A program made the translations under genes and the position numbers. Below, piece by piece: positions 34,248-63,966 of a DNA stretch of 64,000 nucleotides. The stretch covers positions 60,743 to 124,742 of the forward strand of contig VFIW01000122.1 in the NCBI GenBank assembly GCA_006386115.1, read 5' to 3'. Source of the DNA: Globisporangium splendens (lineage: Eukaryota; Oomycota; Peronosporomycetes; Pythiales; Pythiaceae). Every line of letters begins with the position of its first letter. Position 1 is the stretch's first letter. A model generated the notes under the pieces. The model was not told the DNA's origin. It ran no database searches and was given only the letters and a program-made list of their open reading frames with translations.

Positions 34248-34287
34248 ACCAACTCCATCCCAGACAACGTGGAGCAACGCTAGTGTC

Positions 34288-38421: not shown

Positions 38422-39128
38422 TCTCCAGTCAGAAGATCTTTGGCTAGAACGCAACTCGCAAGATCCTGTACCTTATCAAATGTAGAGTATATTTATTCGA
38501 AAAGTAGTAGTATCTATATGTAGCTAGGCAGATTGAGTCGTCACTCCGTCTAATTCTAGTAATATAGACAACTTTCAACTGAGCTATCGAGGCGGCGAAC
38601 TCGCCCACTCACCACTCTCTCTCAAAAACACCACACAAACAACAACACGCACTCTACAAATTTATACTGCACCCACCTCACATGCAAGCGCCACACTTCA
38701 CCTACACGCTTCCCGCGCCACAACCGACCTCCTTGGTCATCGCTTTCGCCTCCCGTGCGCTTCAATCGTCTGACCACCCACTCGTTTCCCCGCAGTGGAC
38801 TGTCGGCCACGGCACTGGTCGAACCTCTCTTTCTGTTGTTGGGACCACCGTCTGTTTGCAGTTCTTCGTGTCTTGCTCTCGTCCCCCCTCTTCAACAAAA
38901 GCAAAAAAACAAAAATACAAAAATACAAAAATACAAAAATACAAAATACAAAATACAAAATACAAAAATACAAAAACAACGCACGCACACGACACACCAA
39001 GTGGTTTAGAACACACCCAACGCATGCCCAACCAACCAAACAGCATACACACACGACAAGTGAGCTCGGCAGACGAAATACAAACAAGAAAGAACACAGC
39101 ACAACAGCAAGCAGCCAAGCAAGAAAAG

Positions 39129-39139
39129 TGCCGCGACCC

Positions 39140-39197
<58 letters not shown>

Positions 39198-39201
39198 AGG
39201 C
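39129..39201 (-). tRNA. tRNA-Phe (GAA), array unit 1
   Basis: 73 nt with D arm GCTC/GAGC, anticodon loop CTGAAGA (anticodon GAA), five-pair T stem with TTCGATC loop and discriminator A. Internal A box (tagctcagttgg) and B box (ggttcgatccc) are intact. The minus-strand 3' flank begins CTTTTC, a short pol III terminator. The acceptor stem has one mismatch, U4 with C69. A non-autonomous element abuts its 5' end. Confidence 0.9.
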
Positions 39202-39937
39202 ACTTCTCAATTTGCTCGCTACCCCACAAGTCGACTCTTCAGAAATACCCAAGCCCATCACCACTCCACTTCCTCCACCTCTCTCTCCCACCCACTCTGC
39301 CTGCAGTATGGGTGTAGGGAGAACCAAGAAGAAGCGCAAGAAGACGCGCGTTTGGAGTCTGCATCGACATCGCCTTCCAGTTCGCCTCGCAACTGTCCGT
39401 CGATCGGCTCCGTCGGTAGAGCCGATGCACTTGGCTGAGCGAAGCGACCCGCATTGCGCTTGAGCAACTGCAAGACGACCGAGAGAGGTCGCGCTTGTGC
39501 GAGCGGGGAGTGCTCCGATCGCCAGCACGATCTCGAAGAATCAACCCAGAAGTGAAGAATGAACCCACAAGACAAGAAAACCCACAAGCGAAGAATCAAC
39601 CCACAAGTCAAGAAATCAACCCACAAGAATCAACCCACAAGACAAGAATCAACCCACAAGACATGGTTCAACCCACAAGGGAAGAATCAACCCAGAATAC
39701 ATCCTCGAGTGTCTCACACCGACACTCACACCTCAAAACAGCAAGGTTTAAAGACCTGACGCACAAGCAACCTTCACCAAGCCAACACAAACGACTGCAT
39801 AGCACAACCAAAATCTCACCCCAACAGAATTAAAGAGAAGCCTTAGTGCTAGCATCATAGAATACGCAATGGCATAGCGAGCAATTAGAAGTCAGTTTGC
39901 CGTACTATTTATTCACACTAATATACGGACACCTTTC
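39202..39937 (+). mobile_element. Non-autonomous element (0.74 kb), copy 1
   Basis: Begins with the LINE head (acttctcaatttgctcgct) and ends ctaatatacggacacctttc, followed by the 17-bp target copy at 39938-39954. It has no RT. It contains a 51-codon ORF (39308-39463) for a basic peptide, MGVGRTKKKRKKTRVWSLHR..., similar in copy 2, and a gaatcaacccacaag minisatellite. Likely moved by the LINE machinery. Confidence 0.82.
39540..39690 (+). repeat. gaatcaacccacaag minisatellite
   Basis: Eight to nine imperfect 15-20 bp copies in the non-autonomous element. The equivalent tract is at 63560-63705 in copy 2 with a different copy arrangement. Confidence 0.8.
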
Positions 39938-40055
39938 AACTGAGCTATCGAGGCACTTCTCAATTTGCCGGCTACCCCACAAGTCGACACTTCGGAAGAA
40001 CCCATCCCCTTCCAGCTCCAAGCTTCTCTCTCCGGTCGCTGTCCCTTCTCTATCA

Positions 40056-42778
40056 TGGAGAATCCAGCTGCCGCCCAGTCGCTCCGCCCAGCCGCCTCGA
40101 CCTCCCCTGTCACTCCGGCCCCGGTTCCAGTGATCGCTCCTGACCACTCTTCTGGCCAAGCGATCGCTCTCTCCCACATGGACCCTGTCGTTGCTCCCGC
40201 CGATGGCTTCCGTGCCGTGCCCACTGACGACATCGAAGACCCTGCGCCGCTGGTCGTGCTGTCTTCCCCGTCGTCCGTGCTCGTGCCGCCGCCGCCGCCG
40301 TCGTCTGCGCTTCCTGTTCCTCCTGCTGCTATCGCGCCGCTGGTGGACCTGACGGGAGCAAGCGATAGCGACCAAAGCGACGCAACCGCTGCGCTGCCCT
40401 CACCTTCTGACTCCTCCGGCGACGAAGACGACGCGATGCCTCCTCCACCTCCTGCTGATGTCGAGCCTGACGTCGACGAGGTGATGCCGTCTGCTGGTGT
40501 CGGTGCTGCTGCTGCCGCTGCTGGTGCTGCTGAAGATCCACGTCCGACGATGGCTATGCTGCTCAGCCAGCAAGAAGCCATTCGTCGCGACAACGCCGAA
40601 GTCGATGCTGCTCGTCGCCGCGTGGAGACCCCGAAGCCTCTCGCGATCGACATCGAAGCGATCGAGCGCCAGTACGCTGCCGGCGGTGACTGGTCTGCCA
40701 TCGCCTCCAGCATCCACCAGTCTCGCCCGTACCAGCTTCCCCGTGCCAAGTACGACATGGTGATCGAGACGGGCAAGACGTTCGCCAAGACACCGCTGAC
40801 GAAGATCATGGCCGCGCTCGTGGGAACGAACTACGGCAACCGCGCGCTCGACCGTCTGTACGAACAGAAGCTCGTCGACCAAGTGTCGAAGCTACCGGGT
40901 GGCAATCTGCGCCTCAAGCTCAAGTCTCGTGAAGCGTGCCTGAAGCTCGAGCGCACGACTGTGAGCATCCTCGGTGGTGTCTTCCCGTTCAAGCCGTTCG
41001 ACGTTCTGGCGAGCATGTTCTACTTGGATGTCTCGAACATCGACTCGGACACGAACACGGACCTCATGCTGCGTCGGCTGTACCTGCTCGGATGCGAACC
41101 GGTGTACGACACGTTCCGCGATGTGAACCTGGCGACGGGTCTCACGTCCGCGACGTGGCGTGTCTACTTCCGGTCGAGCGAGTGTCCGCCTCCGCTGGTG
41201 GTGAACGGCTCGGTCTGCGACCAGATCGTCTTCAACAACAAGATGTACCCCGCGCACGGCAAGGACGCGCCGTTCCAGTCGGAGCGTCTCCCCTTCGGCT
41301 TTCGCTCGCATCACGGCATCGATTTGAAGTCGTCCGAATCGTCGAATGCTGCGTTCGCTCGCTCTGCTTCAGCGTCGGTTGCAACTCCCGCTGCCAAGTC
41401 GAACTCGTCGAAGAACCAAGAGAAAGCACCTCCCGCTCCGCCGAAGACGTACGCGCAAGCTGCTCAAGCCGGACCGGTCTTCTCCTCGCTCCGCAACGCG
41501 CTCGAGGACGAAGAGAAGAAAGAGGATGGCCAGCTCCAGTCTGGAGCTCAGCATGGCCAGCGATCTGCGGCCAGTCAACTCGCGAAGAGAATCATCGACA
41601 TCGACGACACGCTCTCGATCTCGACGTTCACTGGATCCGGTGGTCGTATCTCGCCGCCTGCGAGTCCGAAGGCTCCGCCCAAGCCGGTGCTGCTGCTGAC
41701 AAATGGTTCGGACGGCTTCACCACCGTCGAGAACAAGAAGAAGCGCTCGCGCGGAGGTGTCGACTTCAGCAACATGCTGACGAAGCAGATGCCAAAGCCG
41801 CTCGATGGCGTCGCGACCGCGAACTACTTCCAGGCGCTCCAGACGATGGAAGTCAAGTTCGAGTCGATCGACGCGACCGTGGACAAGAAGTACGGCGTCC
41901 GTCACCACGTGCGTCCGGTCGACGTGAAGCGTCCCGGCGCGCTCAAGGCGTCGACCGAGTCTGCGTTCTTCGTCGAGAAGCATCACACGAAGATCCGCAA
42001 GGCGTCAAAGCCGTCGCCTGTCGTCGAGGTGACCGAGTCGATGATCAGCGACGAGAACACGGCGCTTCTGAACACGCTTGCCGACCGTCTCGAGGATGCG
42101 GACAAGAAGGTCGACGGCATCGCCACGATCCTCGGGAAGGCGACGAACCCCGACCACATCCTGAAGAAGGCGGTCGAGTCCCCACTCGCGTTCAACAGCG
42201 CGCTGTCGCTCAAGATGGCTGCTAGTGGCAACGAGATCGAGGAACTCGTGCAGCTGCACATGATCAACCGTGTGCTGAGCGCGACGAAGCCGGATGAAGA
42301 CACGACGTTTGCTGCGAAGTGGAAGAAACTCATGGGAGCGTCGGTTCCGTCCAAGCGCCAAGACATCTTCGTCACATGCGGCAAGTGGTGGAAGGTGACC
42401 CCGAAGATCTTCGAGCTCACGCGCTTCACCAAGGCGCTGAGCGCGTTCGAGCTCTCGCTCATGTCGATCGCGCCGACGCTGTTCGCGAACGATCACTGGA
42501 TCCAGTTCGTGACGGGACATCCGGTCGAATGGATTCCCGCTCACCACGCGCGTCTGCTGCACCCGAACACGCTGCTGAGTCTCCTGCGGTCGGAGCTTGG
42601 CGAGTTGTGCATGACGCACTGGCGTGAGATCCAGTGGCAAGGCCACATGCTCGATGAACTCGAAGAGCTGCGCACACTCGAGGGACACTACCCAGCGGAC
42701 GAGTCGGTTCTTCAGCTCCAGGTCGCGGACGACGGCTCGGTGACGCCAGTGGCAGGAGGCGTAGCCACTCGCTGCTAA
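40056..42778 (+). CDS. LINE family B ORF1 protein, about 907 aa
   Basis: ATG 40056 gives MENPAAAQSLRPAASTSPVT. N-terminal 170 residues are Ala/Pro/Ser/Asp-rich; the conserved core starts at DPRPTMAMLLSQQEAIRRDN and includes AIERQYAAGGDWSAIASSIH and NLRLKLKSREACLKLERTTV, followed by basic ENKKKRSRGG. Collinear with family A ORF1 from the core to the end (VAGGVATRC) but clearly diverged at nucleotide level; the N-terminus is unrelated. No zinc knuckle. The reading frame is intact. Confidence 0.85.
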
Positions 42779-42818
42779 GGCGGTCCCGACGTCGCAACCG
42801 ACTTGGAACAACGCCAGC

Positions 42819-45800
42819 GTGCTGACCGTGAACACGAACGGCGTCAAGAAGAACGGACACCTCCTGATCGAAAACCTGCTGTCGAAGTACGCGATGTCGT
42901 GCGTCCAAGAAACCAAGTTCGCGGACCGCTCGCACCTCGCAAGCTTCAAGTTCCACCTCGAGTCCGCATTCGAGCACAAGCTGTTCGTGAGCGACTCGAA
43001 CTCGCTGCTGGATCGGCCGACGCGCGGTCGGAGCAATGGAGTGCTGACAGTGCTCCGCTCCGACTTCCCCGGCTTCGACACGGTGGTGGAGATGACCCGA
43101 ATGACCGTCCCTGGCCGGTACCTCGTCGTGCGTGTGACGGTTGAGCTCGCTCCCGTCTACATCCACAACGTGTACGCGCCGGTGGACAAGCAAGAGAAAC
43201 AAGCGTTCTTCTCAAGCCTGCCGACGGAGGAGTTCGAAGATGGCGCGACGCACTTGGTGCTTGGCGACCTCAACACTCCGCTGGATCCGAGCTTGGACTG
43301 TTCGACACCAGATCTGCGCTACGACCCGAGTCGTTCGTGCTGCCTTGAGTGGCTGGCACGTCTTGGAGTCGTCGACGCCTGGCGGATCCATCACGACTCG
43401 GCACGCGCGTTCACCGGTCCGATGCCACGCAAGAACCGTCTTGACTACATTCTGGTCTCGGACGCGTTCTGCAACAGCTTCTACGGCGACGCCAAGTACT
43501 TCCTGCCGAGGCACGCTGGAGACCACCTGGCGCACAGTGTGTCGTTCAAGCCGGGCTCGCAACTGCACGGTCGAGGATACTGGAAGTTCCCGTGCTATCT
43601 GCTCGACTACCCGTTGGTGGTGTCGGCGATCCAGCGCGAAGCTGAAGATGTCTTGGCACAGCTCCGCTCCGCGTCAAACCCCGGTAAGACGTGGGAGCAG
43701 TGGAAGTCGAGCATCAAGGCGCAGCTGCAGGACCTCCAGAAGAAGCTCCGCGCACAAGACACGCAAGCTGTCGAAGACGCTCGTGTCGCGCTGGATCAAG
43801 CTGCTGCTCGGTACCGAGTCTCTGCTGACGACGCCAACCGAGAACTGTACGAGGAAGCCATGCGCGACTACAAGGAGACGGTGACGCGGTCGAGCCAGTA
43901 TCACCAAGACACTGCGTTCGACTTCCAAGCCGCGAACTCCGAGAAGTCGACGAAACACTTCTTCCGACCGCTGGACACGAGCTTGAGGCGGGTCTCGATC
44001 GAGGAAGTCGCGACACCGAGTGGAAGTGTCTCGACGACCCCTCACGAGATCTGTCTTCGCTTCCTGGAGCACTGGGGGTCCGAGATGGGTGACCCAAACA
44101 GTCCGACAGGAAGAGCTCCTCCACCCGATAACGCTGTGCAGCGCAAGCTTCTCGACTCGGTCGTCCGCGTCCTGTCAGAGCTCGACAGGGAGGCTCTCGA
44201 CATGGACGTGACCGCTCTCGACTTGACCGAAGCCATCAAGCACATGAAGGCAACGTCGTCTCCCGGCATGGACGGCTTGACAGCGGGATTCTACCAAGTC
44301 GCGCCGGACGTGTTCGGACAGTGCCTTGAACTGGTCTTCAACGATCGTCTCGAACGTGGCAAACTTCTCGCGTCGCAGCGCAAGTCGGCTGTCGTGCTGT
44401 TGCACAAGAAGGGTTCGCGTGCAGACCCAGGCAACTACCGACCGATCGCGCTCGTCCAAGTCGACGTGAAGGTGTTATCGAAGGCGCTGACGTATCGGCT
44501 GCAGTCTGCCATACCGAAGCTCATCCACCCGGACCAGAAAGGTTTCGTCCGCGGTCGCTCGATCCATCACCACGTGCGCTTCCTCGCTGATCTCCAAGAC
44601 CTCGTCACCAGTCGCGACGAAGAGGCGTACGCGCTGTTCTTGGATTTCCAGAAGGCGTTCGACCGGGTCAACTGGGACTACATGTTCCGGCTGCTCGAGC
44701 GCATGGGGATCGGGGACGGCTTCACGCGCTGGGTCAAGCTGCTGTACACGGATCCACAGGCGCATTTGCTGATCAACGGTGACATCCAGCCAGCGCTGCA
44801 TCCAACGCGAGGCGTGAAGCAAGGCGATCCGCTGTCCGCGCTGCTCTTCATTCTAACGATCGAGCCGCTCGGCAACATGCTTCGATCGCACGAGGAGTAC
44901 GGTGTGTGTCTGAATGACGACCACACTGCGACGAGCATCTTCTTCGCGGACGACTCGACGCTTCTCGGCAGCTCCATCGTGAACCTTCAGGCGCAGCTTG
45001 GGCTCGTGGAGGAGTACTGCCAAGGCTCCGGCGCGAAGTTGAACCTGTCCAAGTCGGTGCTGCTGGCGCTGAACCGGAGTCACGACTGTCCGTCGATGCC
45101 TGGTGTCCAAGTGCTCGGTCGCTCGGAGTCGGTCAAATACCTCGGTATCCCATTCAGCCAGTCGACTGTCGACGATCGCATCCTTGAGTCGCTTGACCAG
45201 CGTTTCTACGACGGCTTCAAGTCGTGGTATCGCCGCGCTCGGACACTCCGCGGACGCCTCTTGGTCGCGCAGACCATGGTGCTCTCGCGCTTATGGCACT
45301 ACACGCAGCACGTCTCGGTTCCGTCGGCGGTCGTCCGGCGATGGCAGTCGATGTTGAACCGGTTCGTGCTGAGTCGCAAGCACGATTGCGACACGACGCA
45401 CGTCCAGTTGATCCCGAGTGAGTTCCTGTATCTGCGGCGCGCAGACGGCGGTCTTGGTGTCCCGTGTCTCGACGCGCAGCTCAAGCGACAGCGACTCGTT
45501 CTCTCGATGCAGTTTGTGGCGCAGGCTCGCGCGTCGAGCGGACGCTGGTGGACGACTGCGAGCACGGAGTTGCTGCGGTCGATACTTCCTCGATACAGCG
45601 GCAGCCACGCGCTCGACTTGCTGACGATATCACCGCAGCGACACGGCGAGATGATCAAGTGCCGACACGTGTCGACATGGTGGAAGACGACTTGGACGTG
45701 GTGGCATCGGACGCGATGGGAGAAGACGTGGCGCGACCTGCCGTCCGATGATCGCGTCGAGTACGCGCTTCACCAGCCGATCTGGTTCCACTCCGACGCC

Positions 45801-46901
45801 GATCTTCACTACGAGCAGCGCATGCGCGGCGGCACGACCGCTGCACATCGACGCTGCATCGGCATGGTGCCTGAGCCGCAACGAAGCTTCCGTCTTCACG
45901 TCTCTCGTGTCTTCGGTCTTCGGTCGCTCGCGGACTTCATGCGCGATGGAAGCGCGTGGCCGACGCAAGTCGACTTCGTGAATCGGCACATCGACTTCAC
46001 ACTTGTGGACATCACGCCAGCGAAGCAAGCCAAGTGGCTGCGCACGCTATACCGCGAAGCGACGCAGATCGTGGAGCGGCTTGGTGCACGTGCTGTTGTT
46101 CTGCAGGCGACCGACGGAGGTAGCCCGAGGTTGGTACCGTACGTCGGCGTCACGAGCAACGAGAAGCTGTGCTTGTTCCCGGAGATCCCGCGCTCGGCCG
46201 TCATGTGCATCGTATGGACGCCGAAGTCGCCGACGTAGCCACACCCGATGAAGATCCACTGGGATCGCGTCGACGAGGACACCATCAAGGCGCATGTGAA
46301 GCTTGGCAAGCGTCTGCGCAAGGTGCTGCTCCCGATCTTCGACGACCTTCAGTTCCGCCTGGCGTTCCGTCTTCTGCCGGTCCGGTCGCGCTTCTGGTTC
46401 CTGGAAGCCTCGAACCCGGGGATACACAAGTGTGTGCGTGACGGCTGCGACGCGATCGAGTCCGAGCAGCACTTGTTCTTCGACTGCACGCTCGCATCCG
46501 GACTGTGGCGACAGGTGCTCAGCATCACGACGAAGCTCTTCGCGACACGGCCGACGTGGCTTGACATCGCGCTAGCGAGGCAGCTGCGTGTGCGCGACGA
46601 GTGGATGGACCACGAGACGATCATAGCCGACGTGTGGCATGTCCTTCGCGCGGTGACGCTTCACTTCGTGTGGTCAGATCGCAATCGGTGCCTGTTCGAC
46701 GGGCGACAACCCACACCGGTGACACCTGCAATGGCAGTCATTTACACAACTGTCAGCGCACACATCCGACACAACATGCGAAGAAGGTACGAGGACGAAG
46801 ACTTACAGGTGCTCAAGAGAGTGGTGACGAAGATGAAGACGCTTCAGTCATTCGGCGACTTCTTGGACTCCCACCCATCGATGCTTCAAATTCGGCATTG
46901 A
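42819..46901 (+). pseudogene. LINE family B ORF2: endonuclease and RT, one nonsense codon
   Basis: Same layout as family A ORF2: CVQETKF, LGDLNTPLD, RLDYILVSD, AGDHLAHSV; RT with DFQKAFDRVNWDY and FFADDSTLLG; C-terminal RLLPVRSRFWFLEA and ESEQHLFFDC. A single TAG at 46236-46238 separates the last 220 residues, which stay in frame to 46901. The duplication found in family A (15 residues before the thumb) is absent. No ATG before the endonuclease; the frame opens after a TAG at 42762, overlapping the end of ORF1 by 14 nt. This copy is probably inactive in cis. Confidence 0.92.
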
Positions 46902-47055
46902 TAGGACACTCGTCCGCACGTGAACTTGGCCCTCGACGCTGAAGAGCTGTTCTTCAATTCACCGAAGTCAAATTGCTCGCGTTCGGATTCATCTTCAACC
47001 AAACCTCCGCCATCATCCCCGCAGCATCAACGAGGTGCAGCACTCCAACAGCATC

Positions 47056-47331
47056 ATGAACACGAATGTCGGATCACCACGTCTCGAGCGCGCCAACAAA
47101 GAAGCCACAGCGAACACCCCACTCCAGACGGCACTCGTACCACAAGCATCGTCGACACCCAGCGCACCTACCTCGGCCACAACCTCACGATTCCCCTCCA
47201 TCAACTCCGCGCTCAAACCCGGCTTCGGGGCCCTCACGTTCCCCTGGGGTCCGGGCGAGACACCTGTAGTGTCAGAAGGAGAAACCGCTGAGCTTGGCCT
47301 CGGCAACGTGGCTCGGCTCGGCTTGGCTTGA
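47056..47331 (+). CDS. Small third ORF of LINE family B, 91 aa
   Basis: MNTNVGSPRLERANKEATAN to GLGNVARLGLA. It begins 154 bp after ORF2. The C-terminal half (INSALKPGFGALTFPWGPGE) is conserved, in the same frame and with the stop at the equivalent place, in the LINE remnant at 30312-30470, where several nucleotide differences are silent or conservative. Function unknown; Pro/Gly/Ala-rich. Could be an extension of ORF2 in an ancestor. Confidence 0.5.
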   Translation: MNTNVGSPRLERANKEATANTPLQTALVPQASSTPSAPTSATTSRFPSINSALKPGFGALTFPWGPGETPVVSEGETAELGLGNVARLGLA

Positions 47332-47580
47332 CAGGACTTGAATGGACGCTTCGACTTCAAAAGGTCCCAGTAATAGGGAATAGAGGTCCTACAGTATACA
47401 ACTTTTTGGTCCATACGGACCATTGCGGCAAAAATTCTCAAAAAATATATTATTTATAAAATTGTAGAATAGGTGTAGGAATATATTTATGATAGATACT
47501 GTCCATGCTAGGTAGATTGAGTAGTCACTCTGTCTAATTCTAGTAATATAGATAACCTTTCAACTGAGCTATCGAGGCTC

Positions 47581-49554
47581 ATGGTGATCGAGACTGGAAG
47601 AGCGCTCGCGAAGACTCCGCTCCAAAAGATCATGGCGTCGTTGGCCGGCACGAGCCACGGAAACGCGACACTCGATGAGCTGTACCAGCGCTTCGAGATC
47701 GGTCAGATCTCCAAGCTCCCCGGTGGCAACCTCCGAGTCAAGGTCAAGACGAAGGAAGCCTGTGTGCGCTTGGAACGCACCAAGGTGAACATCCTCGGTG
47801 GTACGTTCACGTTCAAGGAGTTCGACATCCTTGGCGACAAGTATTTCATCGACATTGTCAACGTCGACCCCGACGTGGACATTCGAGTGATCGTGCACCG
47901 ACTGTTCCTCCTCGGGTGCCAGCCGGTGTACCACACCTTTCGCGAAGTGAACCTCGCGACGGGGATGACATCGGCGACCTGGCGGATGTACTTCTTGTCC
48001 AGCTCGTGTCCAAGCGCGTTGGTCGTGAACGGGTCTGTGTGCGACCAGGTGTTGTTCGACAACAAGCTGCACCCGGCGCATGGAAAGAATGCTCCGTTCC
48101 AGTCGGAGCGACAGCCGTATGGGTATCGCTCGCACCATGGAATCGACCTCGGGTCTCCAGACAGTGTGTTCCCTCCTTCGAAGCCAGCTCCAGAGCAACC
48201 CCAGCAGCAACGACAACAACCGCCGAAAACCTACGCTCAAGCTGCGAGTGCGATGCCGAAGCAAACCTCGCTGCAGAAGGCAGTCGAGGAAGGAAAGAGA
48301 CGGGAAGCCCAGCTCCAGCAGAGAGCTCAGCATGGCAAGTCGTCAGCTGAAACAGCGCTGGCCAAGCCGCGAAGCAACTCCGATGTGCTATCGATCTCCA
48401 CGTTCGACGATTCGCAAGGCAAGGTGACTCCACCGGGAAGTCCCAAACCGCCAATGAAGTCTCCGACTCTGCTCTTGACGAATGGAAACGACGGTTTCTC
48501 CACCGTGACAAACAAGAAGAAGCGCTCGAGAAACGGAGTCGACTTCTCCAACATGCTGGTGAAACAGCAACCGCAGCCTCTGGATGGTGTTGCCACCACC
48601 AACTACTTCCAGGTGCTGCAGTCGATGGAAGTGTCCTTCGAAGTGAAGAATGTGGCTGCAGACAAGAAGTATGGTCCTCGGTACCAAGTGATCCCTGTCG
48701 ATGTGAAGCGTCCCGAGGCGCTCAAGACGTCGACTGAGTCGGCTTTCTTCGTCGAGAAGCACCACACGAAGATCAGGAAAGCGTCGAAGGCGTCTCCGAT
48801 CTTGGAGGTGTCCGAGTCGATGCTGAACGACGAGAACACGGCGTTGCTCAACACCCTCCCGGACCGTCTTGCGCTCGCAGACACTCAGGTCGAGGGTGCG
48901 AGCAAACTCATCGACAACGCCACGAACCCCGACCACGTCATCAAGAAGGCAGTGGACTCGCCGCTGGCGTTCAACAGCGCTCTGTCGCTCAAGATGGCAG
49001 GAAGCGGACGCGAGATCGCCGAGATTGCCCAGCTGCATGTGATCAACCGCGTGCTGTGCGCGTCTCAGCCGAGCGAAGACACGACGTTCAGTGCGAAGTG
49101 GAAGAAGCTGATGAAGACGACGGTCCCGTCGAAGCGAGGCGACATATTCAAGACGTGCGCCACGTGGTGGAGATCGTCTGACCAAGTCAGCGAGCTGTCA
49201 CGAGCGACGAAGGCACTCGGGTTCTTCGAACTCATGCTGATGTCGATCGCGCCGACGATCTTCAGCAACGACCACTGGATCCACTACATCACTGGTCAAC
49301 CGGTCGAGTGGATCCCCGCACACCACACGAGACTCCTCCACCCCAACACTCTCCTCATGCTCTTGCGGTCGGACCTTGGTGCGCACTGCTTGAGTCAATG
49401 GAACGAAGTGCAGTGGCAGGGGTACTTGCTCGACGACCTGGAAGAGCTTCGCAAGTTCGATGGGTACTACCCGGTCGACGAGTCGGTGTTGCAGCTCCGA
49501 GTTGTCGAGGGAGAGGTGGTACTGGTAGCGGGAGGGTTGGCCACTCGTTGCTAA
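47581..49554 (+). CDS. Truncated LINE ORF1 (copy D), 657 aa
   Basis: Corresponds to family A ORF1 from its MVIETGRALAK segment on. The frame is intact to LATRC. Residues 1-463 are a diverged relative of family A; the remainder is virtually the same. The N-terminal 300 residues of a full ORF1 are missing, so function is doubtful despite the in-frame ATG. Confidence 0.8.
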   Translation: MVIETGRALAKTPLQKIMASLAGTSHGNATLDELYQRFEIGQISKLPGGNLRVKVKTKEACVRLERTKVNILGGTFTFKEFDILGDKYFIDIVNVDPDVDIRVIVHRLFLLGCQPVYHTFREVNLATGMTSATWRMYFLSSSCPSALVVNGSVCDQVLFDNKLHPAHGKNAPFQSERQPYGYRSHHGIDLGSPDSVFPPSKPAPEQPQQQRQQPPKTYAQAASAMPKQTSLQKAVEEGKRREAQLQQRAQHGKSSAETALAKPRSNSDVLSISTFDDSQGKVTPPGSPKPPMKSPTLLLTNGNDGFSTVTNKKKRSRNGVDFSNMLVKQQPQPLDGVATTNYFQVLQSMEVSFEVKNVAADKKYGPRYQVIPVDVKRPEALKTSTESAFFVEKHHTKIRKASKASPILEVSESMLNDENTALLNTLPDRLALADTQVEGASKLIDNATNPDHVIKKAVDSPLAFNSALSLKMAGSGREIAEIAQLHVINRVLCASQPSEDTTFSAKWKKLMKTTVPSKRGDIFKTCATWWRSSDQVSELSRATKALGFFELMLMSIAPTIFSNDHWIHYITGQPVEWIPAHHTRLLHPNTLLMLLRSDLGAHCLSQWNEVQWQGYLLDDLEELRKFDGYYPVDESVLQLRVVEGEVVLVAGGLATRC

Positions 49555-49594
49555 ACCAACTCCATCCCAGACAACGTGGAGCAACGCTAGTGTC

Positions 49595-54419: not shown

Positions 54420-54430
54420 TGCCGCGACCC

Positions 54431-54488
<58 letters not shown>

Positions 54489-54492
54489 AGGC
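54420..54492 (-). tRNA. tRNA-Phe (GAA), array unit 2
   Basis: Same 73-nt sequence as unit 1, including the 4:69 mismatch. A SINE abuts its 5' end at 54493. The 3' flank reads CTTTGCTTTTC on the minus strand. Confidence 0.9.
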
Positions 54493-54751
54493 CATGACCC
54501 GGTGGCGTGGGTTAGTCGGATAAGCTTCTGGTCCTTACGGTGTGTGTTGCGGGTTCGAGCCCCACACCGGACACTTTCGTAATCGAACCAAACTTGGAGA
54601 ACGGTCGGCTCCAAGCGAAATATTACCGACCCCAGCCTCTGCGCACGACTTTCAGAAATAAAAAATAACCCTTCGGTAGAATGCAGTGTATTGTCTTAGC
54701 CATAGCCGAGAAGGTATAAGGTTGTGTCAACGGTAATATACAGCCACTTTC
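54493..54751 (+). mobile_element. SINE with tRNA-like head, copy 1
   Basis: About 259 bp. The head has an A-box-like ggcgtgggttagtcgg and a B box gggttcgagcccc ending in caccggacac, tRNA-like but with a poorly pairing anticodon arm. The body contains gaacggtcggctccaagcg and aacccttcggtagaatgc; the tail is cggtaatatacagccactttc, resembling the LINE terminus. The 17-bp target copy follows at 54752-54768. Confidence 0.85.
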
Positions 54752-55307
54752 AACTGAGCTATCGAGGCGACGAACTCGCCCACTCACCACTCTCTCTCAA
54801 AAACACCACACAAACAACAACACGCACTCTACAAATTTATACTGCACCCACCTCACATGCAAGCGCCACACTTCACCTACACGCTTCCCGCGCCACAACC
54901 GACCTCCTTGGTCATCGCTTTCGCCTCCCGTGCGCTTCAATCGTCTGACCACCCACTCGTTTCCCCGCAGTGGACTGTCGGCCACGGCACTGGTCGAATC
55001 TCTCTTTCTGTTGTTGGGACCACCGTCTGTTTGCAGTTCTTCGTGTCTTGCTCTCGTCCCCCTCTTCAACAAAAGCAAAAAAAACAAAAATACAAAAATA
55101 CAAAAATACAAAAATACAAAATACAAAATACAAAATACAAAATACAAAAATACAAAAACAACGCACGCACACGACACACCAAGTGGTTTAGAACACACAC
55201 AACGCATGCCCAACCAACCAAACAACATACACACACGACAAGTGAGCTCGGCAGACGAAATACAAACAAGAAAGAACACAGCACAACAGCAAGCAGCCAA
55301 GCAAAAG

Positions 55308-55318
55308 TGCCGCGACCC

Positions 55319-55376
<58 letters not shown>

Positions 55377-55380
55377 AGGC
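55308..55380 (-). tRNA. tRNA-Phe (GAA), array unit 3
   Basis: Same 73-nt sequence; minus-strand 3' flank CTTTTGC. A 5'-truncated LINE starts directly at its 5' end. Confidence 0.9.
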
Positions 55381-58055
55381 TGATCTGCCACATGAAGGCA
55401 ACGTCGGCACCAGGCATGGACGGATTGACGGCTGGTTTCTACCAGGTCGCTCCGGACGTGTTTGGCGAGTGCTTGAGCATCGTGTTCAACGATCGGCTTC
55501 GACGCGGCGTGCTGCTTCCATCTCAACGCAAGTCGGCAGTGGTGCTGCTGCACAAGAAGGGTTCGCGAGCACAACCTGGCAACTACCGACCCATCGCACT
55601 CGTACAGGTCGATGTGAAGGTGCTGTCGAAGGCGCTGACGTACCGACTGCAACAAGTGATCCTCGACTTGATCCACCCCGACCAAAAGGGCTTCGTCAAA
55701 GGTCGCTCGATTCACCACCACGTTCGGTTCCTCGCGGATCTGCAAGACTTGGTGACCAGCCTGGATGAAGAAGCGTACGCGCTGTTCTTGGACTTCGAGA
55801 AGGCGTTCGACCGAGTCAACTGGGACTACATGTTCCGGCTGCTCGAGCGAATGGGGTTCGGCTCGGAGTTTACTCAGTGGATAAAGCTCCTGTATACTGA
55901 CCCGCAAGCGCATCTTCTCATCAACCAGAACATCCAACCCGCGCTACATCCGACGCGAGGAGTGAAGCAAGGCGATCCGTTGTCCGCGCTGCTCTTCGTC
56001 TTGACCATCGAGCCGCTCGGCAACCTGCTGCGGTCCCACGAAGAGTATGGAGTGTGTCTGAACGCAGACCACACCGCCACGAGCACGTTCTTCGCGGACG
56101 ACTCGACTCTCCTGGGCAGCTCGATTGCAAACCTGCAGGCGCAGCTAGGACTCGTGGAAGAGTACTGCAGAGGCTCCGGCGCGAAGCTCAACCTGTCCAA
56201 GTCGATGCTGCTGGCGCTCAACCGCAACCAAGACTGCCCGCTGCTCCCCGGAGTGCAAGTGCTCGGTCGCACGGAGACGGTCAAGTACCTCGGCATCCCG
56301 TTCAGCCAATCACCCATGGACGACAACATCGTCGAGTTCCTCGAGCAGCGCTTCTATGACGGCTTCAAGGCTTGGTACCGACGTGCGAGAACGCTTCGTG
56401 GCCGGCTCTTGGTAGCTCAAACGATGGTGCTCTCCCGGCTGTGGCATTACACACAACACGTGTCGATCCCCCTGGCAGTCGTGAGGAGGTGGCAGTCGAT
56501 GCTGAACCGGTTCGTGCTGAGTCGGAAGCACGACCGCGACGCATCGCACATCCAGCTCATCCCTCGCGAGTTCTTGTATCAACAACGGAGTGACGGTGGA
56601 CTGCAGATCCCAAGCCTGGAAGCACACCTCAAGCGGCAACGTCTTCAGCTTGTACTGCAGTTCATGCGAGCTGCGACTGCAGATGGTGTGCGGAACTGGA
56701 CGACAGCGAGCACGGAGCTGCTCAAGCTCGTTCTTCCTCGCACTGGCGGCTGCAAAACACTCGACTTCCTCACGATCTCTCCGCTCCGACATGGAGACAT
56801 GATCAAGTGGAGACTGACTTCGGCGTGGTGGCGAGCGACTTGGGTCTGGTGGTACACGATTCGCTGGGAGATCAATTGGCACGACCTTCCCTCGGACGAG
56901 CGCGCTTGGTACGGTCTTCGGCAGCCGATCTGGTTCCACTCGGACGCGGAACTCCACTTTGAGCAAAGAACACGATCCAGCACCAGTGCGGCGCACCGCC
57001 GGTGCATCGGGATGGTGGTTGAACCCCAACGGAGTTTCAGACTGCACGTGTCAAGAGTCTTCGGAGTGCGGTCGCTCGCCGACTTCATGAGCGAAGGTTG
57101 TGCTTGGCCATCCCAGCAGGACTTCGTCCAGCGTCACATGGACTTCACGCTCGCGTCTGTCACGCCTGGACAACAGGTGAAATGGCTGCGAGCTCTGCAC
57201 AAGGAAGCGACTCAGATCGTCGAGCGACTTGGTGCGGCGCAGCTAGTTCTACAGCCACCTGGTGGTGTGAGACGACTGCTGCCGCATCTCGGCTGCAAGA
57301 GTGGGGTGAAGACGTGCTTGGTCCCAGCGATCCCAAGGTCGGCGCTTCTCCGCGTGGTGTGGACGCCAACGACACCGACAAAGCCGCATCCGATGACGAT
57401 ACACTCCCAGCGAGTAGGCGACGGGCAGATCAAGGCATTCGTCAAGTACTCCAAGCACCTGCGCAATATCTTGCTGCCCGTGTTCGAAGACCTGCAGTTC
57501 CGCCTCGCGTTCCGTCTTCTGCCGGTGCGCTCGCGGTTCTGGTTTCTGGAGGCGTCACATCCTGGCATCCAACGCTGTGTTCGCGACGGATGCATTGCAA
57601 TCGAGACGGAGCAGCACTTATTCTTCGAGTGTGTGCTTGCCTCCCAGCTCTGGGAGCACATCGGTCAACTCATGGCCCCGCTCATCCGATCGAGGCCGAC
57701 TTGGCTGAGTGTCGCGCTCGGGAAGAATCCGAACGTGTGTGTCGAGTGGGTAGATAGCGAGGGCATTGTGTACGACATGTGGCACACGCTACGCGCGGTG
57801 ACACTCCACTTCCTCTGGTCGGATCGCAACCGATGCTTGTTCGACGGAAGACAGCCGACCCCGGCGATTCCTGCGATGACGATCATCTTTGCGACAGCGA
57901 GCGCACACTTCAGACACAGCCTCCGACGCCGATACGACGCTGACCAACAGACGGCTCAACAAGCAATCCTCACCAAGATGACACAACACCAAGGATTCAA
58001 AGAATTTATGGAAAAGAACCCAACTGCGCTGAGTGTCCGTCACCGTGAAGTGTAA
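55381..58055 (+). pseudogene. LINE family E RT and C-terminal zinc region, 5' truncated
   Basis: About 890 codons, from the segment before the RT (CHMKATSAPGMDGLTAGFYQ) through NYRPIALV, DFEKAFDRVNWDY, FFADDSTLLG and the C-terminal ETEQHLFFEC region to a TAA at 58053. No stop interrupts it, but the endonuclease is missing because of truncation. The upstream frame merely reads through the tRNA unit. Confidence 0.9.
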
Positions 58056-58164
58056 CGCCCGGAACGCACAAGCGACGTGGAGGTTCAATCAAGCTTTTTC
58101 AATGTGCTGTCACTTGAAAACCCGAAACTTGAGGGATATGCAAAAAGACTCGTCGCTACACGAC

Positions 58165-59094
58165 CTACCATGCACCAAACCGGAGCAAGATCCGACGAAC
58201 AGTGCAGATGCTTCGGATCCACGTCTGGGTCATGATGCCTTGGGTTACGCCATTCTCCCGCACGACCATCTTCCCCCCCTCCTTCTTCATTGCGATGCAG
58301 TGGCCGCGTCGGGAGGTCTTGAGGGCGTACACGAGGTAAACGCCATCTTCAATCGGATCAACAGCGCGCCAAGCCAGCTGCGCGACTCCCAGTGGTCCGG
58401 AGCCCTTGCCCGTGTACCAGTTCCTGTTGAAAACGTCCAAGCTAATCCGCCACCCGGTGTGAGGAACTTCCTCGCGGAGAAACTTCACGAGCTGGGAGTA
58501 TTTCAACCCGCCGAACCGACCAGAGTCGCTGAGGGTCATCCGACGGAGAAACTTCTCCGACCGACGCCTCAGCGTCACGACATCCCTATCCAAGCCGCCC
58601 ATCAGCTCAAACGCCATTTGTACTGCGTGGAGAGCACAGTCGTCCTTCGGACTGTCAGCCATCAACTGGATGGACGGGAGGTCCGAGCTGACGAACTCGG
58701 CATAAGACACATTGCGCTCTGGATGCTCCTCGAGGTACCGGTCGTACGCCTTCAAGAGCTCGAAGCAGTTGCCGAGATCAGCGACAGCCATCCACTCAGA
58801 CGACTGGTCCTCCCACTGGATCAAGTACTCGCGCAAGCTGCCGTCGCCACGACGATTCAACACCCGCGCAACAACATGCTCCTCGAACTCCTCCTCCTTC
58901 TCCTCCTCCTGCTCGTCGCCTTCATCAACACGGCGCAAGCGTCGTCGCTTCGGCCGAGGCTCCCCCTCCTCCTCCTCCTCCGAAGAATCACCCAAACCAG
59001 CAGCAACCAGCGTGTCTCCCTCCTCCTGCTCGGGTGCGACCCTCACCGGTCTCATGCCCCCAGCCACCTGCGAAGCAGGCGCATGCGGTGACAT
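58165..59094 (-). CDS. Chromodomain plus cysteine-peptidase-like protein, antisense in LINE E 3' region, 309 aa
   Basis: ATG 59094 gives MSPHAPASQVAGGMRPVRVA; the frame stays open to about 59335 with an SR-rich extension (PPRSRSSSAVARSRSRSRSS) but without an upstream ATG, so the real N-terminus may be longer or spliced. Residues 35-70 are acidic with PKRRRLRR (nuclear signal). Residues 70-122 are a chromodomain (EEHVVARVLNRRGDGSLREY, LIQWEDQSSEWMAV). Residues 145-285 resemble a papain-fold cysteine peptidase: Cys153 in DDCALHAVQMAFELMG, His265 in SRRGHCIAMKK, and a following VVRENG strand. This family assignment is by pattern only. The frame is uninterrupted over 300 codons. It could nick the SUMO/ubiquitin system or chromatin proteins, but no substrate can be inferred. 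Confidence 0.6.
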   Translation of the reverse strand: MSPHAPASQVAGGMRPVRVAPEQEEGDTLVAAGLGDSSEEEEEGEPRPKRRRLRRVDEGDEQEEEKEEEFEEHVVARVLNRRGDGSLREYLIQWEDQSSEWMAVADLGNCFELLKAYDRYLEEHPERNVSYAEFVSSDLPSIQLMADSPKDDCALHAVQMAFELMGGLDRDVVTLRRRSEKFLRRMTLSDSGRFGGLKYSQLVKFLREEVPHTGWRISLDVFNRNWYTGKGSGPLGVAQLAWRAVDPIEDGVYLVYALKTSRRGHCIAMKKEGGKMVVRENGVTQGIMTQTWIRSICTVRRILLRFGAW

Positions 59095-59335
59095 TACAGC
59101 CCCGGATTGAGTCACACCGCTGCGAGAGGAAGACGGCACAGCAGTCACGCCACCAACTTGGAGACCCTCCACCAGAGGTGTGAGAGAGAGAAGCGCCGAC
59201 GAGCGAGAGAGCGAGCGCGCAGCAGTGGAAGAGCGCGAGCGTGAACGAGAGCGCGCAACAGCAGACGATGAGCGCGAGCGAGGTGGCTTGGTGGTCTTCG
59301 ATGTCAGCGGCGCTGGTCGGGCTTTTTTGACGAAT

Positions 59336-59351
59336 GGCTATTTTTAGCCAC
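59336..59351. other. Short perfect inverted repeat
   Basis: tggctatttttagcca, just upstream of the antisense chromodomain ORF; possible regulatory hairpin or element boundary. Function unknown. Confidence 0.5.
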
Positions 59352-60150
59352 CCCTTCAAAACGCCAAAAATAACCCCCCTCCTACACGCAATTCAAGCAA
59401 TTCACACAATTCATTCATAAAGAATTGCAAGACAGACATTTCAAAAAGTCAACCTCAAGTCCAGATTCAATACGTCAACATGTATACTAGAGTAGTATAG
59501 TAAGTGATATTTCTATTTTTGCTAGGTAGATTGAGTAGTCACTCCGTCTAATTCTAGTAATATAGACAACCTTTAAACTGAGCTATCGAGGCGACGAACT
59601 CGCCCACTCACCACTCTCTCTCAAAAACACCACACAAACAACAACACGCACTCTACAAATTTATACTGCACCCACCTCACATGCAAGCGCCACACTTCAC
59701 CTACACGCTTCCCGCGCCACAACCGACCTCCTTGGTCATCGCTTTCGCCTCCCGTGCGCTTCAATCGTCTGACCACCCACTCGTTTCCCCGCAGTGGACT
59801 GTCGGCCACGGCACTGGTCGAACCTCTCTTTCTGTTGTTGGGACCACCGTCTGTTTGCAGTTCTTCGTGTCTTGCTCTCGTCCCCCTCTTCAACAAAAGC
59901 AAAAAAACAAAAAAACAAAAATACAAAAATACAAAAATACAAAAATAACAAAATACAAAAAAACAAAAATACAAAAATACAAAAATACAAACATACAAAA
60001 ACAACGCACGCACACGACACACCAAGTGGTTTAGAACACACTCAACGCATGCCCAACCAACCAAACAGCATACACACACGACAAGTGAGCTCGGCAGACG
60101 AAATACAAACAAGAAAGAACACAGCACAACAGCAAGCAGCCAAGCAAAAG

Positions 60151-60161
60151 TGCCGCGACCC

Positions 60162-60219
<58 letters not shown>

Positions 60220-60223
60220 AGGC
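60151..60223 (-). tRNA. tRNA-Phe (GAA), array unit 4
   Basis: Same 73-nt sequence as the others. Two SINE copies in a row lie at its 5' end. Confidence 0.9.
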
Positions 60224-60480
60224 GATAGACCCGGTGGCGTGGGTTAGTCGGATAAGCTTCTGGTCCTTACGGTGTGTGTTGCGGGTTCGAGCCCCACACC
60301 GGACATTTTCGTAATCGAACCAAACTTGGAGAACGGTCGGCTCCAAGCGAAATATTACCGACCCCAGCCTCTGCGCACGACTTTCAGAAATAAATAACCC
60401 TTCGGTAGAATGCAGTGTATTGTCTTAGCCATAGCCGAGAAGGTATAAGGTTGTGTCAACGGTAATATACAGCCACTTTC
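60224..60480 (+). mobile_element. SINE, copy 2
   Basis: 257 bp, nearly identical to copy 1, followed by the target copy at 60481-60497. Confidence 0.85.
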
Positions 60481-60497
60481 AACTGAGCTATCGAGGC

Positions 60498-60756
60498 GTA
60501 GACCCGGTGGCGTGGGTTAGTCGGATAAGCTTCTGGTCCTTACGGTGTGTGTTGCGGGTTCGAGCCCCACACCGGACACTTTCGTAATCGAACCAAACTT
60601 GGAGAACGGTCGGCTCCAAGCGAAATATTACCGACCCCAGCCTCTGCGCACGACTTTCAGAAATAAAAAATAACCCTTCGGTAGAATGCAGTGTATTGTC
60701 TTAGCCATAGCCGAGAAGGTATAAGGTTGTGTCAACGGTAATATACAGCCACTTTC
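60498..60756 (+). mobile_element. SINE, copy 3, stacked behind copy 2
   Basis: 259 bp, starts directly after the target copy left by copy 2 and is followed by another at 60757-60773. It shows that repeated insertion at one tRNA gives a head-to-tail stack with the 17-bp sequence between members. Confidence 0.85.
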
Positions 60757-61290
60757 AACTGAGCTATCGAGGCGACGAACTCGCCCACTCACCACTCTCT
60801 CTCAAAAACACCACACAAACAGCAACACGCACTCTACAAATTTATACTGCACCCATCTCACATGCAAGCGCCACACTTCACCTACACGCTTCCCGCGCCA
60901 CAACCGACCTCCTTGGTCATCGCTTTCGCCTCCCGTGCGCTTCAATCGTCTGACCACCCACTCGTTTCCCCGCAGTGGACTGTCGGCCACAGCACTGGTC
61001 GAACCTCTCTTTCTGTTGTTGGGACCACCGTCTGTTTGCAGTTCTTCGTGTCTTGCTCTCGTCCCCCCTCTTCAACAAAAGCAAAAAAACAAAAATACAA
61101 AAATACAAAAATACAAAAATACAAAAACAACGCACGCACACGACACACCAAGTGGTTTAGAACACACACAACGCATGCATGTCCATGCAACCAAACAGCA
61201 TACACACACGGCAAGTGAGCTCGGCAGACGAAAGACAAACAAGAAAGAACAGAGCACAATAGCAAGCAGCCGAGCAAGAAAAGCAAAAAC

Positions 61291-61323
61291 TGCCGCGACC
61301 CGGGATCGAACCAGGGACCTTCG

Positions 61324-61359
<36 letters not shown>

Positions 61360-61363
61360 AGGC
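61291..61363 (-). tRNA. tRNA-Phe (GAA), array unit 5, degenerate anticodon stem
   Basis: Differs from the other copies by one base (plus-strand ttcggatcttc), which opens the third pair of the anticodon stem (A29 opposite C41). The flank also differs (aaaactgccg). With the 4:69 mismatch this copy is the weakest functional candidate. Confidence 0.85.
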
Positions 61364-61880
61364 GACGAACTCGCCCACTCACCACTCTCTCTCAAAAACA
61401 CAACACAAACAACAACACGCACTCTACAAATTTATACTGCACCCACCTCACATGCAAGCGCCACACTTCACCTACACGCTTCCCGCGCCACAACCGACCT
61501 CCTTGGTCATCGCTTTCGCCTCCCGTGCGCTTCAATCGTCTGACCACCCACTCGTTTCCCCGCAGTGGACTGTCGGCCACGGCACTGGTCGAACCTCTCT
61601 TTCTGTTGTTGGGACCACCGTCTGTTTGCAGTTCTTCGTGTCTTGCTCTCGTCCCCCCTCTTCAACAAAAGCAAAAATACAAAAATACAAAAATACAAAA
61701 ATACAAAATACAAAATACAAAAATACAAAAACAACGCACGCACACGACACACCAAGTGGTTTAGAACACACACAACGCATGCCCAACCAACCAAACAACA
61801 TACACACACGACAAGTGAGCTCGGCAGACGAAATACAAACAAGAAAGAACACAGCACAACAGCAAGCAGCCAAGCAAAAG

Positions 61881-61891
61881 TGCCGCGACCC

Positions 61892-61949
<58 letters not shown>

Positions 61950-61953
61950 AGGC
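61881..61953 (-). tRNA. tRNA-Phe (GAA), array unit 6
   Basis: Standard array sequence; followed on both sides by complete units with no insertion. Confidence 0.9.
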
Positions 61954-62515
61954 GACGAACTCGCCCACTCACCACTCTCTCTCAAAAACACCACACAAAC
62001 AACAACACGCACTCTACAAATTTATACTGCACCCACCTCACATGCAAGCGCCACACTTCACCTACACGCTTCCCGCGCCACAACCGACCTCCTTGGTCAT
62101 CGCTTTCGCCTCCCGTGCGCTTCAATCGTCTGACCACCCACTCGTTTCCCCGCAGTGGACTGTCGGCCACGGCACTGGTCGAACCTCTCTTTCTGTTGTT
62201 GGGACCACCGTCTGTTTGCAGTTCTTCGTGTCTTGCTCTCGTCCCCCTCTTCAACAAAAGCAAAAAAACAAAAAAACAAAAATACAAAAATACAAAAATA
62301 CAAAAATAACAAAATACAAAAAAACAAAAATACAAAAATACAAAAATACAAACATACAAAAACAACGCACGCACACGACACACCAAGTGGTTTAGAACAC
62401 ACTCAACGCATGCCCAACCAACCAAACAGCATACACACACGACAAGTGAGCTCGGCAGACGAATCAACAAGAAAGAACACCGCACACCCAAGCACCAAGC
62501 AAGAAAAGCAAAAAG

Positions 62516-62526
62516 TGCCGCGACCC

Positions 62527-62584
<58 letters not shown>

Positions 62585-62588
62585 AGGC
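62516..62588 (-). tRNA. tRNA-Phe (GAA), array unit 7
   Basis: Standard array sequence, no insertion at its 5' end. Its 3' flank has a small deletion relative to the other units. Confidence 0.9.
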
Positions 62589-63156
62589 GACGAACTCGCC
62601 CACTCACCACTCTCTCTCAAAAACATCACACAAACAACAACACGCACTCTACAAATTTATACTGCACCCACCTCACATGCAAGCGCCACACTTCACCTAC
62701 ACGCTTCCCGCGCCACAACCGACCTCCTTGGTCATCGCTTTCGCCTCCCGTGCGCTTCAATCGTCTGACCACCCACTCGTTTCCCCGCAGTGGACTGTCG
62801 GCCACGGCACTGGTCGAATCTCTCTTTCTGTTGTTGGGACCACCGTCTGTTTGCAGTTCTTCGTGTCTTGCTCTCGTCCCCCTCTTCAACAAAAGCAAAA
62901 AAAACAAAAAAACAAAAAAACAAAAAAACAAAAATACAAAAAAACAAAAATACAAAAAAACAAAAAAACAAAATACAAAAATACAAAAATACAAAAACAA
63001 CGCACGCACACGACACACCAAGTGGTTTAGAACACACACAACGCATGCCCAACCAACCAAACAGCATACACACACGACAAGTGAGCTCGGCAGACGAAAT
63101 ACAAACAAGAAAGAACACAGCACAACAGCAAGCAGCCAAGCAAGAAAAGCAAAAAG

Positions 63157-63167
63157 TGCCGCGACCC

Positions 63168-63225
<58 letters not shown>

Positions 63226-63229
63226 AGGC
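63157..63229 (-). tRNA. tRNA-Phe (GAA), array unit 8
   Basis: Standard array sequence. The second copy of the non-autonomous element abuts its 5' end. Confidence 0.9.
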
Positions 63230-63949
63230 ACTTCTCAATTTGCTCGCTATCCCACAAGTCGACTCTTCAGAAGTACCCACACCATACCCTCTCCGTCTTC
63301 CCTCTCTCCCACCCACTCTGCCTGCAGTATGGGGGTCAGGAGAACCAAGAAGAAGCGCAAGAAGACTTGCGTTTGGAGTCAGCATCCTCCTCGTTTTCCA
63401 GTTCGCCTCGCCAGTGTTCGTCGATCGGCTCCGTCGGTAGAGCCGATGCACTTCGCTGAGCGAAGCGACCCGCATTGCGCGTGAGCAACTGCAAGACGAC
63501 CGAGAGAGGTCGCGCTTGTGCGAGCGGGGAGTGCTCCGATCGCCAGCACGATCTCGAAGAATGAACCCAGAAGTGAAGAATGAACCCACAAGACAAGAAT
63601 CAACCCACAAGCGAAGAATCAACCCACAAGTCAAGAAATCAACCCACAAGACAAGAATCAACCCACAAGACATGGTCCAACCCACAAGGGAAGAATCAAC
63701 CCAGAATACATCCTCGAGTGTCTCACACCGACACTCACACCTCAAAACAGCAAGGTTTAAAGACCTGACGCACAAGCAACCTTCACCAAGCCAACACCAA
63801 CGATCGCAAAGCAACAAACAACATCTCACCCCAACACAGAATTAAAGAGAAGCATTAGTGCTAGCATCACAGAATACGCAAGGGCGTAGCGAGCAATTAG
63901 AAGTCAGTTTGCCGTACTATTTATTAACAATAATATACGGACACCTTTC
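63230..63949 (+). mobile_element. Non-autonomous element (0.72 kb), copy 2
   Basis: Same head, body and tail as copy 1, with scattered differences and indels. The basic 51-codon ORF is kept at 63329-63484 (MGVRRTKKKRKKTCVWSQHP). The 17 bp after its tail read aactgagccaaaggagc instead of the usual target sequence. Confidence 0.82.
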
Positions 63950-63966
63950 AACTGAGCCAAAGGAGC

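Follow-up and report, generated by a model that had tools for sequence, protein, structure and literature searches.

A LINE of the oomycete Globisporangium splendens found at the 5' ends of many tRNA genes and probably targeted through box A

How do transposable elements of different length and make-up come to begin at one and the same base beside a tRNA gene? The question is raised by a 64,000-nucleotide stretch of the 53.3-Mb genome of Globisporangium splendens, the genome searched here (G000:C29:60743-124742, hereafter the window, whose right edge is the contig end). A reading made from the letters alone (the sequence-only reading) had listed nine element starts, at 31328, 39202, 39955, 47579, 54493, 55381, 60224, 60498 and 63230, and proposed a LINE that inserts inside tRNA-Phe together with SINE partners. 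Its observations hold: all nine starts lie directly after the ...GAGGC that ends in tRNA nucleotide 1, and the same 17-mer follows eight of the nine elements, the exception being 63230-63949.

Results

In the right part of the window, tRNA-Phe genes stand in a tandem array on the minus strand with a period of 590-641 bp; plain repeats of this length are the native array itself, a type of arrangement already described in oomycetes (PMC9584435). ARAGORN calls eight tRNA-Phe(gaa) genes in the window, all on the minus strand, with the native 5' flank GACGAACTCG (or GGCGAACTCG). In five of them an element directly abuts nucleotide 1, and three, at 61291-61363, 61880-61953 and 62515-62588 (together 61291-62588), are uninterrupted. 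Seven of the eight sequences are identical, and the remaining one, an uninterrupted unit, differs by one base within the gene; insertion therefore leaves the tRNA whole. With up to two mismatches allowed, AACTGAGCTATCGAGGC has 17 matches in the window, every one exact, where chance would give 0.01: eight lie within whole tRNAs and nine are isolated 17-mers.

Read along the plus strand, the first isolated 17-mer (tRNA-Phe nucleotides 17-1; 31311-31327) is the right flank of an upstream LINE tail and is followed by LINE A (31328-38576; 7249 bp, with a full 5' end), another 17-mer (38577-38593) and native array flank. The intact tRNA-Phe at 39128-39201 (ARAGORN; minus strand, as are those below) carries at nucleotide 1 a short LINE-headed element (39202-39937; 736 bp), which a 17-mer (39938-39954) separates from LINE B (39955-47561; 7607 bp); the next 17-mer (47562-47578) separates LINE B from a 5'-truncated copy of LINE A (47579-53883; 6305 bp, 93.5% identical to LINE A), which ends in a 17-mer (53884-53900) with native flank behind. 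Three more intact ARAGORN-called tRNA-Phe genes follow. That at 54419-54492 bears a tRNA-headed SINE (54493-54751; 259 bp) and its 17-mer (54752-54768); that at 55307-55380 bears LINE C (55381-59575; 5'-truncated, 4195 bp, with an RT frame at 54930-58055) and its 17-mer (59576-59592); and that at 60150-60223 bears the second and third SINE copies (60224-60480 and 60498-60756), separated by one 17-mer (60481-60497) and followed by another (60757-60773). Native array flank lies behind the outermost 17-mer at all three. Beyond the uninterrupted units, the intact tRNA-Phe at 63156-63229 (ARAGORN) bears a 720-bp short LINE-headed element (63230-63949), followed by AACTGAGCCAAAGGAGC (63950-63966), a tRNA-Met type flank within the Phe array, and by the start of another LINE that is cut by the contig end (63967-64000). 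This ninth right flank equals the 5' end of the genome's tRNA-Met, as called by ARAGORN at two loci (L206 and L207), save that it reads AAC where the gene has GAC. Upstream of 31311, a repeat with TG...CA ends (TGTAAGAGG...CCATTACA; 30671-31277) interrupts the LINE tail; it appears to be a solo LTR with a 5-bp duplication, CTCCG.

The "four or more unrelated" families of the sequence-only reading reduce to one LINE group, the 720-736 bp element and the 259-bp SINE. The ORF2 products of LINE A and LINE B are 71% identical over their aligned part, and truncated LINE C has 74-75% DNA identity to both over ~2.6 kb. LINE A has two long open frames (ORF1, 31338-34247; ORF2, 34288-38421), and by Pfam its ORF2, whose N-terminus reads VSVNTNGIKKN...VQETK, holds an APE endonuclease and a reverse transcriptase (RT), with no RNase H domain found; its best solved-structure match is human L1 ORF2p (E 5.6e-56, R2 following at 1.5e-23). 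The ORF2 frame of LINE B (42819-46238) has an early stop and is accompanied by an additional frame at 46248-46901. An APE endonuclease and an RT in one ORF that is closest to L1, a constant 3' end, variable 5' truncation and a target duplication are the features of an L1-group LINE, and the truncated LINEs at 47579 and 55381 still start exactly at nucleotide 1. ORF1 matches no Pfam family at cut-off, and the two window ORF1 frames align over just 53 residues. A hairpin in the LINE tail was considered and not adopted: it shows no compensatory change in 13 pairs and clearly beats shuffled sequences in one copy only. Of 599 ORF2 candidates 34 were scored, and 29 of these are without a stop; 12 regions were fetched for the missing 3' ends of ORF2 copies, and tail plus flank were seen in five. 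Relatives of ORF2 occur in Peronospora, Lagenidium, Aphanomyces, probably Plasmopara, and metagenomes, with none in viral contigs, and the oomycete relatives may share the targeting of tRNA starts.

Every element in the window terminates in (A)CTTTC or CCTTTC/A. With the LINE 5' end, the 720-736 bp element has only its first ~60 bp in common (84%). To the eye, the head of the SINE resembles a tRNA, with stretches like box A and box B, though Rfam does not call it as one; the SINE has the target site and terminal bases of the LINE, with sharing limited to about the last 17 and no significant match when the two are compared. Its three window copies sit at tRNA-Phe, another copy is at a Met-type 17-mer, and one adjoins a Lys-like sequence that has no ARAGORN call. 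A SINE away from any tRNA (L047; C25:174746-174997) has an 18-bp duplication, GGATCGTTGCTGTTCTAG, and a right flank that begins AACTAG.

Oomycete promoters can carry an INR+FPR block, YCAYTYY, 2 nt and MWTTTNC, with transcription starting at the A (PMC3599244). The start of the LINE and short element, (C)ACTTCTCAATTTGC, opens with the A at which transcription would be expected to begin, the preceding C coming from tRNA nucleotide 1, and every position fits save the -2 base at tRNA-Phe, which is C at the Ala and Ile targets. The 5' end of both is therefore a candidate oomycete INR+FPR core promoter, in which case each full copy would bring its own. Two LTR-like repeats ~7.2 kb apart, at 17212 and 24389, carry the LINE start motif CACTTCTCAATTTGC; a common INR+FPR motif would explain their sharing of the 14-mer. 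Allowing one mismatch, the 14-mer element start occurs at 185 + 172 places in the genome (reversed control, 7 + 6). Of 100 exact matches listed, a hand count puts 44 at tRNA-type sequences; one LTR-like repeat accounts for 37, two of them in the window, another repeat for 15, and four lie elsewhere. The 56 outside tRNA-type sequences are taken not as insertions of this element but to be the same promoter motif in other repeats; the 14-mer was rejected as a marker of insertions, and longer starts were used because it also marks those repeats.

To survey targets genome-wide, we searched for element tails and starts with the flank left free; the counts are lower bounds, because only exact matches with a base other than T at one end were scored. 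Reversed-pattern controls gave no matches in each of the six tail and start searches. Tail sequence by itself located 92 3' ends, and in 86 of these a tRNA-type 5' end follows. The LINE tail TAATATAGACAACTTTC occurs at 38 places, 37 of them leading into a tRNA-type 5' end and one not (Phe 11, Ala 6, Met 4, Ile 4, Tyr 4, Thr-TGT 3, Thr-AGT 2, Asn 2, unconfirmed 1), the short-element tail at 27 (26 and one; Met 8, Phe 7, Ile 5, Thr 3, Ala 1, Lys 1, Tyr 1), the LINE tail with CCTTT at 24 (20 and four, counted by hand), and a divergent tail at three, all Leu-type, one of them unconfirmed. From the other side, 83 of 84 5' starts abut a tRNA-type 5' end: 58 of 59 LINE starts, the exception lying 18 bp upstream of tRNA-Leu-CAA, and 25 of 25 short-element starts. 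Most of the 83 are base-exact, and about ten are shifted by 1-6 bases. Because arrays expand, copies within them are not independent insertions.

ARAGORN calls adjoining genes of twelve kinds: Phe, Met, Ile-AAT, Thr-AGT, Thr-TGT, Ala-AGC, Ala-CGC, Lys-TTT, Tyr, Asn, Leu-TAA and Ser-GCT, the last a single case, shifted by 2 bases, for which a search found no 3' end. Typed without ARAGORN confirmation at the site are CTCGCGC (one LINE tail, two LINE starts), two Gly-like short-element starts and the divergent tail on C16. The share of tRNA-Phe is 11/38, 7/27, 2/24 and 0/3 places in the four tail searches, or 20 of the 86 tRNA-adjacent 3' ends, and other tRNA kinds appear in all four, which rules out specificity for tRNA-Phe. 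What the sequence-only reading had named as the result that would overturn it, most other copies lying outside tRNA-Phe, is indeed what we find, yet those copies sit at the same place in other tRNA genes. Its site-specific LINE with SINE partners landing at tRNA genes is supported; its observation is right and its interpretation, partly supported, is too narrow. ORF2 copies 96-100% identical to LINE A occur at Phe, Met, Thr-AGT, Thr-TGT and Ala genes, and one enzyme therefore serves several tRNAs. An ORF2 lineage about 59-63% identical sits at tRNA-Leu-TAA and tRNA-Ser-GCT, whose box A differs (C129:1233501, L192; C67:359928, L094 and L202); target preference may have shifted between LINE lineages.

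What, then, is duplicated on insertion? Pairing starts with ends gave 47 element pairings, from which we dropped seven with different tRNA kinds on the two sides, six in shifted register and four of unfitting length or spanning two elements; the remaining 30 and one added Leu pair make 31. Nucleotides 1-14 are the same on both sides in 31 of 31, while at nucleotides 17-15 the left side reads GAC, CAC or ATT and the right side AAC in all 22 informative pairs (21 of 21 if C35:61457, typed without its one extra C, is excluded). With nucleotides 1-14 matching and the right-hand AAC independent of the left, AAC is therefore element-derived and the duplication spans 14 bp; the 17 bp that had been read as tRNA-Phe nucleotides 17-1 consist of 14 bp of target and an AAC brought by the element. 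At Leu-TAA the left flank is CACTCGGGC and the right AACTCGGGC, and the element therefore supplies AAC, at most AACT, an upper limit set by the Leu case alone. A tail reading CTTTCAACAACTGAGC at C34:12773 fits an RNA ending in AAC. At the six non-tRNA 3' ends AA comes first in 6/6 and AACTG in 5/6, and at two off-site copies, on C164 and C46, AAC replaces other bases of the left flank. Two copies depart from the rule: an off-site one reads AATTTAGC in place of AAC, and a misfitting tRNA-Tyr copy reads TACTGAGC (the Tyr copy reading TAC is among the shifted-register pairings dropped). Because the duplication is 14 bp and AAC is element-borne, we infer a priming nick between A14, a conserved base of box A, and nucleotide 15. 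The claim of insertion inside tRNA-Phe would then stand for the nick, which would fall within the gene, and fail for the product, in which the element ends up 5' of nucleotide 1 and the tRNA is complete.

Discussion

Throughout, elements stand head-to-head with the tRNA, starting precisely at nucleotide 1 or a few bases from it and leaving the tRNA complete, and their 3' side is a copy of nucleotides 1-14 preceded by an AAC that is not from the target. On this sequence evidence we think it fairly probable that target-primed reverse transcription places an L1-group LINE at tRNA gene 5' ends through recognition of box A / the D-arm. The conserved GCTCA at nucleotides 10-14 would be the feature recognized; the ORF2 endonuclease would nick the tRNA sense strand between A14 and nucleotide 15, the freed ...GCTCA 3' end would prime on element RNA ending ...CTTTCAAC, and the second strand would be cut after nucleotide 1. 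Truncated copies that start at the same base are expected for reverse transcription from a fixed 3' end. Either the whole tRNA or the half-site behind an element could receive more elements, which would build tandem stacks, and the 259-bp SINE and ~720-bp LINE-headed element would use the LINE proteins in trans, because they share the site, the AAC rule and the terminal (A)CTTTC/CCTTTC. Against this model stand the 6/92 3' ends that are not at tRNA 5' ends, the 7/47 pairings with different tRNA kinds on the two sides, and the start 18 bp upstream of tRNA-Leu-CAA, explained equally by proximity to a tRNA gene as by sequence. For the fuller version, in which the endonuclease reads box A / the D-arm directly, the RNA-terminal AAC pairs at nucleotides 15-17, one element can settle at the first base of many tRNA kinds and support its SINEs there, and read-through dimers bring the 5' ends of one tRNA family to another and so create chimeric tRNA genes, we see an even chance.

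Tethering to the RNA polymerase III machinery, as for Dictyostelium TRE5-A, with the endonuclease contributing no more than a local preference among bases, would account for the use of many tRNA kinds with different sequences, for the head-to-head arrangement also reported for TRE5 (PMC5911963) and for the copy 18 bp from a tRNA-Leu. The register, however, is base-fixed here, as against 40-54 bp upstream for TRE5 and 2-6 bp for NLTR-A in the same source, the nick would lie within box A, and off-site copies share AACTG, so that we regard tethering as possible but rather unlikely. Much less probable is that very few insertions were multiplied as tRNA arrays recombined, underwent gene conversion and expanded, the specificity being mostly copying. 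The tandem arrays and the 7/47 mixed pairings suit such a history, whereas LINE, short-element and SINE insertions with differing truncation points keep one register, and unlinked arrays of at least 11 tRNA kinds have their own nucleotides 1-14 on both sides (8 kinds in the pair table). We give least credence to the view that the 17 bp are not target but the 3' end of the element itself. The constant AAC speaks for it, as does AACTGAGC, found behind 61 of 65 3' ends in the LINE and short-element tail searches; against it, nucleotides 1-9 differ according to the tRNA at the site and agree with the left flank in 31/31 pairs, and Leu genes have TCGGGC in place of TGAGC. The flank pairs refute any element-borne origin beyond AAC (at most AACT).

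Mixed flanks raise the possibility that tRNA 5' ends travel. The window's last short element stands at tRNA-Phe with a Met-type 17-mer behind it, 34 bp short of the contig end, and a tRNA-Met array on C162 contains two short elements with a Phe-type 17-mer between them. Two chimeric tRNA genes, each beside a short or LINE-type element, combine a Met body with an Asn 5' end (L207; C162:1694330-1696600) and an Ile body with a Met 5' end (L208; C35:84200-84400). Read-through dimers moving between arrays would explain both mixed flanks and chimeras; recombination between arrays and misassembly are alternatives. The LINEs at C122:16739-24065 and C188:19330-26604 have unlike tRNAs on their left and right (Thr/Ala, Ile/Phe), for which recombination between arrays or misassembly may likewise be responsible.

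How does this LINE compare with known systems, as represented by excerpts of the reports cited? TRE5 elements integrate 40-54 bp upstream of tRNA genes, tethered through TFIIIB (PMC5911963); like TRE5-A of Dictyostelium discoideum, the present element is a LINE with APE and RT upstream of many tRNA genes in opposite orientation, differing in its position at the tRNA start. NLTR-A of Dictyostelium purpureum, a non-LTR element 2-6 bp upstream of the mature tRNA sequence (PMC5006619, PMC5911963), resembles it in nearly touching the first base of the tRNA; NLTR-A differs in its spread of 2-6 bp and in having an RNase H domain, whereas this LINE has no RNase H by Pfam, a mostly base-exact register and a duplication that takes in 14 bp of the tRNA gene itself. 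Most of the 83 starts are base-exact, and neither the distance from the tRNA start of TRE5 nor the spread around it of NLTR describes them. Dewa, a zebrafish LINE in the tRNA-Leu spacer (PMC3706591), is like other Tx1-type target-specific LINEs a sequence-specific LINE in a multicopy small-RNA gene array, as here; going by its brief description, Dewa uses one gene family and its spacer, in contrast to the many tRNA kinds used by this LINE. Utopia, found in U2 snRNA genes of oomycetes among others (PMC4640811), is an oomycete LINE likewise confined to a small-RNA gene array, and differs in its restriction-like endonuclease, its U2 target and the interruption of the gene; with an APE endonuclease and tRNA targets, the LINE described here falls outside Utopia. 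Dada DNA transposons, inside tRNA and snRNA genes (PMC3706591), share a base-exact target inside tRNA genes, yet have a DDE transposase and 6-7 bp duplications and interrupt the tRNA. SART1Bm offers a parallel for the proposed annealing of the RNA 3' sequence to the nicked target strand, unlike this LINE in its telomeric repeat target and poly(A) tail (PMC7265360).

As these sources present them, known tRNA-seeking LINEs land near tRNA genes, one by protein tethering, and sequence-specific ones use one gene family. The present LINE joins base precision to a target common to a whole gene class, because the motif it would use is common to most tRNA genes. In the literature searched, with Repbase and most subscription journals outside its scope and some sources in excerpt, we found no LINE at tRNA box A, no oomycete tRNA-targeting LINE and no base-exact LINE insertion at many tRNA genes. 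Such targeting would be unusually exact use of a safe site, reaching many tRNA kinds and leaving the tRNA gene whole; it would also offer a compact insertion system with a defined nick site and a possible route by which tRNA 5' ends move between tRNA families. As a separate observation, some LINE 3' regions hold tRNA-like sequence themselves (L172 on C126, Gly-like; L186-L187 on C115; L175 on C114; L179 on C35), and the elements on C115 appear to be inserted into the Gly-like tRNA sequence of a LINE 3' region.
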